From NCBI RefSeq assembly GCF_016597785.1, contig NZ_JAENJG010000001.1, forward strand, positions 1,426,001-1,490,000: 64,000 nt of DNA. The letters run 5' to 3'. The first letter of the stretch is position 1. Each line of letters opens with the position of its first letter. The translations under genes were made by a program, and so were the position numbers. Of this stretch, positions 37,900 to 40,095 are shown piece after piece. The DNA is from Leucobacter sp. L43. Lineage in GTDB: Bacteria > Actinomycetota > Actinomycetes > Actinomycetales > Microbacteriaceae. The notes beneath the pieces are model-generated. The model worked only from the letters and a program-made list of their open reading frames with translations, did not search any database and was not told the DNA's origin.

Positions 37900-38373
37900 C
37901 TAGCGGCGGCGCTCGAAGAAGGCGCGGAGCAGCGCGGCGCACTCGTCGGCGCGCACCCCTCCCACCACCTCAGGCACCGCGTGCGGCAGTCGCCCGTCGC
38001 GCAGCAGATCGTAGACACTGCCGACAGCACCGGCCTTCTCGTCCCAGGCTCCGATCACGACGCGCTCGATGCGCGCAGCGAGGATCGTGCCGGCGCACAT
38101 GACGCAGGGCTCCAGCGTCACGACGAGCGTGCAGCCGTCGAGCATGCGACTTCCACGCGCAGCTGCCGCCTCGCGAATGGCGAGCACCTCGGCATGGCCC
38201 GTCGGATCCGGCACCGACTCGCGGGCGTTGCCGCCCGCACCGATGACGACCCCGTCGGCATCGAGCACGAGCGCTCCGACCGGAATCTCGCCCGCATCGA
38301 ATGCCTCGCGCGCCTGGTGGAGCGCGAGTCCCATCGACTCGAACTCGGCGCGCGATGGGGGGATGGGGGTCAC
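37900..38373 (-). CDS. tadA: tRNA-specific adenosine deaminase (TadA-like nucleoside deaminase)
   Basis: A 157-residue zinc deaminase that converts A34 to inosine in tRNA-Arg(ACG), by family. The catalytic motifs HAEVLAIREAA (His ligand and Glu proton shuttle) and PCVMCAGTILAARI (two Cys ligands) are intact. It starts with GTG 38373 directly behind -10 TATTCT (38380-38385), 6 bases away, so the mRNA should be leaderless. It is divergent from upp with only 17 bases between start codons. Confidence 0.9.
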   Translation of the reverse strand: MTPIPPSRAEFESMGLALHQAREAFDAGEIPVGALVLDADGVVIGAGGNARESVPDPTGHAEVLAIREAAAARGSRMLDGCTLVVTLEPCVMCAGTILAARIERVVIGAWDEKAGAVGSVYDLLRDGRLPHAVPEVVGGVRADECAALLRAFFERRR

Positions 38374-38390: not shown

Positions 38391-39029
38391 ATGCGAGTCT
38401 TCGTTGCGGATCATCCCCTCATCACCCACAAGCTCACCGTGTTGCGTGACACGAAGACCTCCCAGCCGACGTTCCGGCTCCTCATCGAGGAGCTGATGAC
38501 GCTCCTCGCCTATGAGGCCACGCGCGAGGTGCGCGTCGAACCGCACGCGATCGAGACGCCGGTCGCGCCCACGACGGGCGTGAAGCTCAGCGAGCCGCTG
38601 CCGCTCATCGTCCCGATTCTGCGCGCGGGGCTCGGAATGCTCGAGGGCATGGTGAAGCTCGTCCCCACAGCCGAAGTCGGATTCCTCGGCATGGCACGCG
38701 ACGAAGAGACGCTGCAGCCCACGACGTACGCCGAGCGGCTGCCCGATTCGCTCGCCGGGCGTCAGTGCTTCGTGCTCGACCCGATGCTCGCGACGGGAGG
38801 ATCACTGGCGGCAGCGATCAAGTTCCTGTTCGACCGCGGCGCCGACGATGTGACGGCGATCTGCGTGCTCGGCACCCCTGAGGGCGTCGAGGCGATCAAG
38901 CAGGCAGCGGGCGACCGCGAAGTGACGCTGGTGCTCGGAGCGCTCGACGACGGCTTGGACGAGCACGCGTACATCGTCCCCGGCCTGGGCGACGCCGGCG
39001 ACCGCCTGTACGGCACCGCCGACCACTGA
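38391..39029 (+). CDS. upp: Uracil phosphoribosyltransferase
   Basis: Salvages uracil with PRPP to UMP. A 212-residue protein with [16 protein letters not shown] at the N-terminus, the PRPP-binding segment [17 protein letters not shown] and the C-terminal uracil site [19 protein letters not shown] 38391 lies 6 bases after a -10 element, so translation is probably leaderless. Standard family length. Confidence 0.95.
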
Positions 39030-39074
39030 CCCGGCCGCGCGACCGCTCAGTTCTGCTGCATCCGCAGCTTCCGC

Positions 39075-39104
39075 TTGACACTCGGAGCAATGCTTTGCTT
39101 AACT
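39075..39104 (+). promoter_or_regulatory. Strong sigma70-type promoter of the Met/Cys leader ORF
   Basis: Consensus -35 TTGACA (39075-39080), an 18-base spacer, and -10 TTAACT (39099-39104). The predicted transcript start falls at about 39111, next to the ATG at 39112. This is one of the best consensus promoters in the window. Confidence 0.65.
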
Positions 39105-39111
39105 TGCGGTT

Positions 39112-39216
39112 ATGCATGAGACCATTCGTCCCCAGTCCGCCTTCGAGGTGAACTTTGGGAACCCCGGCATGATGATGGCCGGGCAGAGTGTCATGCGTTG
39201 TCGAATGTGCATGTGA
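39112..39216 (+). CDS. Putative Met/Cys-rich leader peptide
   Basis: A 34-residue open frame starting 7 bases after a consensus -10, therefore leaderless. Its C-terminal half is GMMMAGQSVMRCRMCM: 6 Met and 2 Cys in the last 15 residues. Such runs are typical of peptides where ribosome pausing senses an amino acid, as with poly-Cys upstream ORFs in mycobacteria. Downstream (39217-39399) are GGCCGGT/ACCGGCC and GCGC/GCGC hairpins, then an orphan winged-helix regulator. I do not recognise this peptide and its translation is inferred. Confidence 0.5.
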   Translation: MHETIRPQSAFEVNFGNPGMMMAGQSVMRCRMCM

Positions 39217-39399
39217 ACGTCTTCTAGCAGTACGTCCACCCCGCGACATCTTCCCGTCGCCGCGATCTCGGGTCGCCGCTTCCACTGAGACTCCTCGGAA
39301 GCGCCGCCCGCTTCGCCCGCACCACTGGCCGGTCACCGGCCTCCGTGTTCCGCGCACCGCTGCGCAGAACCGCATTCGACAGCCTCGAAGGACATCATC

Positions 39400-40095
39400 A
39401 TGAACGCCACCACCCAGACCCTCCGCGCCGCTCGCCCCGACCTCGCCGCAGATCTCTCGCCGCAGCACACTTCAGAGCGCCGCGTTCCCGAAGGCACCGA
39501 GGTGCGCGGTTTCGCACTCTACGTCGGCCTCGCCGACGACAAGATCGCCGACGGCGACCCGAAGCTCGGCGCCATCGTCACCCGCATCAAGCAGCTCGTC
39601 GCCGAACTCGCTCCGGCGGCCGAAACCTACGCAGCCGTCGCCCTCGCCCCGGAGCAGACGGGCGGTCGTGACGTCGACGTCGTGCGCCTCGCGCTCGGCG
39701 ACCCCGCAGCTGTCGCCCGTCAGAAGCAGCACGAAGCGGAAGAGCAGGATCACGCTGCGAGCGGCGTGATCCTCGATCTGTCGCGGAAGCGCGTCCTGCT
39801 CGACAACGTCACTGCCGCGCTCACGTTCCGGGAGTTCGAACTGCTGCAGTACCTCGTGCTGCGCGAGGGGCGCACGATCAGCCGCGAGGAGCTCATCTCC
39901 GCGCTGTGGAGCGAGGGCACCGACGAAGAGGTGCCCAGTGAGCGCACCATCGACGTGCACATCCGCCGTCTCCGGGTGAAGCTGGCGCAGTACCAGGACA
40001 TCGTGCGCACGGTGCGCGGCACCGGATACCGCTTCGACCGTCACGCTGACGTCGCGATCCTCCACACGGCGGCACCGAGCCCCGACGCTTTCTGA
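39400..40095 (+). CDS. Orphan winged-helix (OmpR/PhoB-type DNA-binding) regulator
   Basis: A 231-residue protein. Residues about 125-222 form an OmpR-type winged helix (LTFREFELLQYLVLREGRTI, SRE-ELISALW, SERTIDVHIRRLRVKL, VRTVRGTGYRFD). The N-terminal ~110 residues are not a receiver domain: there is no phospho-acceptor Asp pattern, but a region VRGFALYVGLADDKIADGD followed by a helix. It therefore probably senses something other than a histidine kinase signal. AAGGA is 8 bases before ATG 39400. The 184-base leader begins right after the Met/Cys ORF. Confidence 0.8.
   Translation: MNATTQTLRAARPDLAADLSPQHTSERRVPEGTEVRGFALYVGLADDKIADGDPKLGAIVTRIKQLVAELAPAAETYAAVALAPEQTGGRDVDVVRLALGDPAAVARQKQHEAEEQDHAASGVILDLSRKRVLLDNVTAALTFREFELLQYLVLREGRTISREELISALWSEGTDEEVPSERTIDVHIRRLRVKLAQYQDIVRTVRGTGYRFDRHADVAILHTAAPSPDAF

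Follow-up and report, generated by a model that had tools for sequence, protein, structure and literature searches.

Canestrari et al. reportedly described, in 2020, polycysteine leaderless short open reading frames (ORFs) in mycobacteria. According to the passages cited here, such leaderless short ORFs with contiguous Cys codons attenuate the genes downstream of them in response to cysteine supply (PMC9031893, PMC13236596). Candidate Cys leaders are also given for the cys operons of Mycobacterium and Propionibacterium acnes and for cbs of Bifidobacterium longum, and in the LEU element of actinobacterial leuA a run of Leu codons is able to base pair with the Shine-Dalgarno region of the gene that follows (PMC1262725, in the parts used here). 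The leader uORF of whiB7/wblC is presented as a case in which ribosome stalling induces a transcription factor (PMC13236596), and the uORFC-8-2 motif upstream of cysS in Rhodobacterales is presented as a uORF with conserved tandem Cys codons (PMC8632094). No description of the leader-regulator system reported below was found in searches of open-access papers.

We analyzed a stretch of 64,000 nucleotides from Leucobacter sp. L43 (Microbacteriaceae; positions 1,426,001 to 1,490,000 of contig NZ_JAENJG010000001.1), referred to as the window, in which a short ORF rich in Met and Cys precedes an orphan winged-helix regulator. The reading that we favor, and consider reasonably probable, is that a leaderless leader peptide gauges the supply of Met and Cys for a receiver-less PhoB/GlnR-type regulator, which would be made when these amino acids are short.

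Results

Promoter and leader ORF

Unless stated otherwise, all features lie on the forward (+) strand of the window. A sigma-70-type promoter was read from the sequence at positions 39075 to 39104, with TTGACA at 39075-39080, an 18-nt spacer, and TTAACT at 39099-39104. The ATG at position 39112, located 7 nt past the −10 hexamer TTAACT, opens a probably leaderless ORF of 34 codons (39112-39216) that encodes MHETIRPQSAFEVNFGNPGMMMAGQSVMRCRMCM. An earlier note on this DNA, made from the letters alone, had placed the promoter directly before the ORF, and the relatives agree with this placement: for 102 of the 103 leaders, the top-scoring promoter was located 6 to 9 nt 5′ of the ATG, a result favored somewhat by the rule that, if one leader had several ATGs, the one 7 nt after a −10-like hexamer was preferred. 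This spacing fits a leaderless transcript, and the leader ORF is probably leaderless. With the −10 position limited to 6 to 8 nt ahead of the ATG, the −35 hexamer was TTGACA in 89 of the 109 distinct relatives. A simple promoter scan, which demands an A at the second −10 position, reported no site at TTAACT. The spacer at 39081-39098 (GCAATGCTTTGC) looks conserved by eye across much of Leucobacter; allowing one mismatch at most, it occurs once in the window genome. The upstream neighbor (38391-39029) is taken to be upp and the opposite-strand gene upstream (37900-38373) is presumably tadA, both names being assigned from the sequences.

The leader of the window ends with MMMAGQSVMRCRMCM. As had been noted before, and as is directly evident from the translation, 6 Met and 2 Cys are present among its final 15 residues. 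The presumed sensing codons, M-R-C-R-M-C-M, adjoin the stop codon (39193-39213). A search with this single sequence recovered the leader from 36 of the 37 genus-set genomes (the source genome included), and 1 of 23 genomes of other families gave a weak match (E 0.06) that was located within a long frame. At E≤0.1, a profile of 19 leaders matched 176 of the 299 family genomes, and a broader profile of 49 leaders matched 223 of the 299 Microbacteriaceae genomes at E≤0.01, covering 71 of 85 genera. Every gap in an alignment of 62 leaders was a multiple of three, and UGU and UGC interchange in the Cys columns of 109 leaders, UGG being absent. Relatives that lack the ORF or break its frame, the outcome that the earlier note had named as speaking against it, were thus mostly not found.

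Met and Cys together made up 24% of the post-start residues, with a minimum of 6 per leader (104 leaders), the genome average being 2.3% (261 ORFs of the window genome). The pattern used to pick leaders, which 128 of 138 loci passed, required a Met pair and (C/N)RM, and some of the residue conservation follows from this requirement. Ten of the 138 loci (L018, L019, L043, L067, L085, L092, L103, L107, L133, and L137) gave no leader or no regulator under this rule, and some of them show a visible leader on inspection. The 128 loci were reduced to 109 distinct ones, which include many close relatives and form 38 clusters; later counts are based on 104 loci, after removal of five with odd starts, or on 108, 103, or 102 after other removals. 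The 261 control ORFs were filtered by GC3 and replace a set of 266 ORFs that, judged by odd codon usage, probably held false frames. By all these comparisons, the 34-codon ORF is a real and widely conserved leader peptide.

A regulator with almost no Met or Cys

The gene downstream (39400-40095) encodes an orphan regulator of 231 amino acids that, according to domain and fold searches, has a C-terminal winged helix of the PhoB/OmpR/GlnR type and no receiver and that contains no Cys and no internal Met. Trans_reg_C (PF00486) matched residues 140 to 212 with 75.8 bits and no Pfam receiver domain matched the regulator, in agreement with its initial description as lacking a receiver. The fold search was led by the DNA-binding domains of PhoB and GlnR, and the AlphaFold model was confident for the winged helix only, the N-terminal half having low confidence. 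This N-terminal part (RGFALYVG...GGRDVDVVRLAL) is strongly conserved in orthologs and has no Pfam match. At E≤1e-30, 289 of 299 family genomes contain the regulator, a few giving two matches each, and a class-wide search matched 18 of 296 genomes, 14 of these being Microbacteriaceae. Among the matches listed, the closest was that of Leucobacter musarum (94% identical). At locus L018 (~1910-2200), from one genome of the genus, the regulator reading frame breaks off shortly past the RGFALYVG motif and the remainder is readable in another frame, which we ascribe to a sequencing error or decay.

Cys was absent from all 109 distinct orthologs (25,872 residues) and internal Met from 108 of them, the orthologs being related and not 109 independent cases. 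Regulator starts were set by a Shine-Dalgarno rule, and that of L074 is probably wrong; counting from the RGF motif, the result was still 108 of 109. The neighboring upp contained on average 5.0 Met and 2.1 Cys and was free of both in 0 of 87 cases. In the window genome, Met and Cys were both missing from none of 49 ORFs with 180 to 280 residues and from 2 of 227 with 150 to 1000 residues, and four paralogs of the regulator hold at least 4 Met/Cys each. At the genome rate, the chance of neither residue occurring in one protein of this size is ~0.005. In a second family of the order, probably the Micrococcaceae, the regulator was present in 80 of 80 genomes; 25 of 30 regulators were parsed, and 19 of these 25 lacked Met and Cys over the conserved part (mean of 194 residues), the rest holding one or two. 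The absence of Met and Cys has persisted across genera and largely into the second family. This avoidance provides the strongest independent support for a Met/Cys signal and for synthesis of the regulator during shortage.

Met and Cys are also the residues most easily oxidized, and the same composition could be explained by redox or metal sensing, in which the Met/Cys-rich nascent peptide itself, or a loss of free Cys caused by oxidants, electrophiles, or copper, would slow the leader and the composition of the regulator would let it survive oxidation. The lack of both residues in 108 of 109 orthologs and the retention of both in the leaders are in line with this explanation, but the conserved rarer codons CGA and UGU described below point to decoding speed over the chemistry of a finished peptide, and we consider it unlikely.

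Divergent leaders and other families

From 20 genomes named among the 76 without a leader match, 15 were examined, one per genus and all with the regulator. In 11 of the 15, the regulator is preceded by a short ORF of divergent sequence whose tail contains Met/Cys; no leader was found before the regulator in 3, and 1 could not be parsed. The residue order of the divergent leaders is rearranged and their Met+Cys content ranges from 12 to 41%, a content that is partly built in, as candidates were ranked by CGAATG or high Met/Cys. One of them, MTTRAQLDGAPQGAMMPCSMCMCMCMCR, has no CGA, contains four Met-Cys repeats, and is followed by an intact regulator. Judged by these cases, Met/Cys content tends to persist where the leader sequence drifts, and one leader ends with MMPCSMCMCMCMCR.

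Leaders of the second family were located by searching for the string CGAATG, which, followed by two codons and the stop codon, was present ahead of the regulator in 30 of 30 fetched loci. The tail Cys-Cys-Arg(CGA)-Met (CCRM) was found in 23 of the 30 loci; the residue before CGA was not Cys in 5, and locus L172 had zero Cys among the last 12 leader residues. The CGA codon is thus better kept than Cys in this family. ORFs seen whole usually begin with GTG directly after a promoter-like stretch. The leader profile detected no second-family leader (no match in G041, G042, and G059), and the leader of this family can be called related-looking, being alike in place, tail, and codon, not by profile.

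A direct repeat, TTGTTAC-N13-TTGTTAC, was present at the second-family leader promoter (L158 to L187) in 12 of 12 genomes searched, with 0 to 2 mismatches, and is possibly an autoregulatory site. Other hits to this repeat in the 12 genomes numbered 35 versus 74 for the reversed control and did not outline a regulon. Neither the repeat search in these genomes nor a spacer search in the window genome revealed a target gene or a shared operator. In a third family (L153), upp is followed by a short Met/Cys-containing ORF ending with AMMRCVRGLR and then by a regulator of 260 amino acids that, by eye, has no Cys and no post-start Met.

Codon-level and RNA constraint in the leader

The Arg codon that precedes the final Met of the motif (CGA at 39202-39204 in the window) was CGA in 109 of 109 distinct leaders, and CGA-ATG is equally far from the stop codon in the second family. 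Elsewhere, CGA accounted for 73 of the 2270 Arg codons of the regulator genes and for 962 of 8380 (11%) in the ORFs of the window genome. The Cys codon ahead of CGA was UGU in 75 of 107 leaders versus 62 of 669 (9%) in the window genome. Slower or rarer synonyms at the control codons are as expected of a supply gauge. Codons fixed beyond the needs of the protein were also found at three other positions: the GGG codon of Gly16 (39157-39159), used for 98 of 102 Gly codons in this column compared to 7% in the regulator genes and 21% in the 261 genome ORFs, GAG (100 of 100), and GTC (66 of 67).

Hairpin-forming sequence had previously been placed after the ORF; a hairpin does exist, but its better place is inside the ORF, at 39163-39183, where the run of Met codons (39169-39177, AUGAUGAUG) is located in the loop or close to it. 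For 71 distinct hairpins, the mean folding energy was −12.3 kcal/mol with native arms, −10.4 kcal/mol with chimeric arms, and −9.0 kcal/mol with synonymous codons. This amounts to a moderate covariation signal, as 32% of the 3′ arms taken from other loci folded, on average, no worse than the native one. RNAalifold returned weak consensus structures for the leader, and five weak Rfam matches were obtained, none close to its cutoff. Met and Cys are also retained in several divergent leaders that have no Met-run hairpin.

An RNA in which the hairpin and the invariant CGAAUG bind a ligand, a protein, or an sRNA, the peptide being a by-product, would account for the codon-level constraint at GGG, GAG, GTC, and CGA and for native hairpins pairing better than chimeric ones. 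It fits poorly with leader gaps that are multiples of three, with Cys columns that accept UGU and UGC and never UGG (109 leaders), with divergent leaders that keep Met/Cys and lack the Met-run hairpin or, in one case, CGA, and with the lack of an Rfam family at the cutoff; we regard it as improbable.

CGA decoding relies on the inosine-bearing ACG tRNA. The Arg tRNAs found in the window genome have the anticodons ACG, CCG, CCT, and TCT, and none has TCG. The leader might thus sense CGA decoding, which here only the ACG tRNA with inosine-34 performs, and report on TadA or on this tRNA, a suggestion encouraged by CGA in all 109 leaders, by CGA-ATG in 30 of 30 second-family loci, and by the position of tadA and upp just upstream. 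But the leader without CGA has four Met-Cys repeats, CGA is not very rare in the genome (11%), and a regulator free of Met and Cys would be left unexplained, which makes this suggestion very unlikely. Least probable of all is a small conserved ORF of the ordinary kind that senses nothing and, by being translated, couples to or tunes the regulator, since, common as leaderless transcripts and small proteins are in mycobacteria according to the cited part of PMC4633059, it predicts neither the Met/Cys enrichment of the leader nor the absence of these residues from the regulator.

The gap between leader and regulator

The gap from 39217 to 39399 is C rich and G poor (78 C and 45 G in 183 nt) and is a putative Rho-loading stretch. 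Its skew, (C−G)/(C+G), is 0.268, a value that none of 60 control gaps from the genome attained, and C exceeds G in the gap of 102 of 102 relatives. No intrinsic-terminator-like site was present between 38900 and 39500 of the window. Because of this result and the C richness of the gap, Rho-dependent termination is probably the more likely brake.

Two stretches of the gap were considered as pairing partners of the leader. The first, CATTCGACAGC at 39373-39383, is complementary to the Cys-Arg-Met codons, and its pairing in the window beats nearly all shuffles (0.017), making it a candidate partner in part of Leucobacter only. In part of this genus, CGACAGC (39377-39383 in the window) is present shortly before the Shine-Dalgarno sequence, matching GCUGUCG in the leader. 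A family-wide pairing between the gap and the Cys-Arg-Met codons was rejected, since shuffles were beaten at the 0.05 level in 13 of 108 loci, with a median of 0.43. CATTCG was not enriched in the gap (5.6 clusters versus 4.0 expected).

The second stretch, CATCATCATG at 39393-39402, spans the regulator start, is complementary to the Met codon run of the leader, and emerged from word enrichment. CATCATC and its overlapping shifts were the top enriched gap words, Shine-Dalgarno words aside, CATCATC occurring in 22.5 of 38 weighted clusters versus 1.8 expected. Within 260 nt past the leader, 67 of 109 loci of the main set (~60%) carry it, as opposed to 1 of 30 loci in the second family, where the Met run is missing; 41 of the 109 loci have no copy within 45 nt of the start, and several genera lack it. 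Base pairing between the Met codons and CATCATC close to the ribosome site is conceivable.

In folding calculations for 102 loci, a stall at the Cys codons changed the mean accessibility of the ribosome site from 0.48 to 0.43 (0.48 for a control mask), with an increase of more than 0.05 in 17% of the loci and a decrease in 37%. Folding thus lends no support to a ribosome site that opens when translation stalls on the Cys codons. With the ribosome placed on the Met run, mean accessibility rose slightly, to 0.52.

Discussion

Sensing of Met and Cys by the leader is likely in the light of these comparisons. In the mechanism we propose, a ribosome would complete the peptide and depart when Met and Cys are plentiful, and the C-rich gap, being left untranslated, would then permit an early end of transcription, probably by Rho, and/or masking of the ribosome site. 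A shortage of charged Met- or Cys-tRNA would make the ribosome stall on the final codons beside the stop codon. The stall would lift the block, and the regulator could be made, needing the initiator Met alone, and would then switch on a sulfur-amino-acid program. The earlier suggestion of control by Met/Cys supply gains support from sequence comparison, Met and Cys being kept amid change in the leaders and both being nearly missing from the regulator. Features beyond those noted earlier are the Met/Cys-poor regulator, the constraint on the CGA and GGG codons and on the hairpin in the ORF, and the C-rich, G-poor gap.

On a wider scale, the arrangement may represent a switch dedicated to starvation for sulfur amino acids and common to the Microbacteriaceae and the second family, in which a Met/Cys peptide serves as the sensor and a master regulator has been purged of Met and Cys, allowing its synthesis precisely when both are lacking, a proposal on which we are evenly divided. 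If true, it would reveal a system controlling sulfur amino acids in a large actinobacterial group, an attenuator that senses two amino acids simultaneously, and a clean case of a regulator whose composition is shaped by the shortage that it answers. The function of a regulator present in 289 of 299 family genomes would become directly testable.

Of the systems described before, whiB7/wblC resembles the proposed stall in that a uORF controls a transcription factor; that regulator drives intrinsic antibiotic resistance genes, and the cited passages of PMC13236596 mention no Met/Cys pattern. The uORFC-8-2 motif differs by its intrinsic terminator, its tRNA synthetase target, and its occurrence in alphaproteobacteria, as far as described in the cited part of PMC8632094. 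The intrinsic terminator of a classical attenuator is likewise not present at 38900-39500, counting the window only. As in the LEU element, the codon run AUGAUGAUG could pair with a downstream sequence, here CATCATC, the complement being present in ~60% of the loci; the LEU element differs by its Leu codons and its biosynthetic target (PMC1262725, cited part). The Cys leaders of the same source share with this locus Cys codons near the stop codon, which form runs there, the lack of a conserved terminator hairpin, and Rho, suggested as one possibility; they belong to other lineages and have metabolic targets, and no Met run is described for them in the parts used (PMC1262725).

The mycobacterial polycysteine ORFs are similar in having a short ORF (leaderless there and probably so here) with Cys codons upstream of a gene, elongation speed there reportedly depending on cysteine. 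They combine contiguous Cys codons with cysteine biosynthesis genes, in the portions of the sources cited above, whereas here mixed Met/Cys codons and a conserved CGA, a hairpin in the ORF, and an orphan regulator are found. The earlier note had already pointed to a difference in amino acid pattern and target. Contiguous Cys codons are not present in the leader of the window (R-C-R-M-C), and both positions before CGA are Cys codons in 63 of 109 relatives. Instead of a cysteine metabolism gene, a winged-helix regulator is located downstream, which has the Trans_reg_C winged helix of the OmpR/PhoB type without the N-terminal receiver of two-component regulators. Although the leader-regulator arrangement departs from the mycobacterial type in two features, contiguous Cys codons and kind of target, it would, by its sequence, work like the known Cys leaders and the LEU element.
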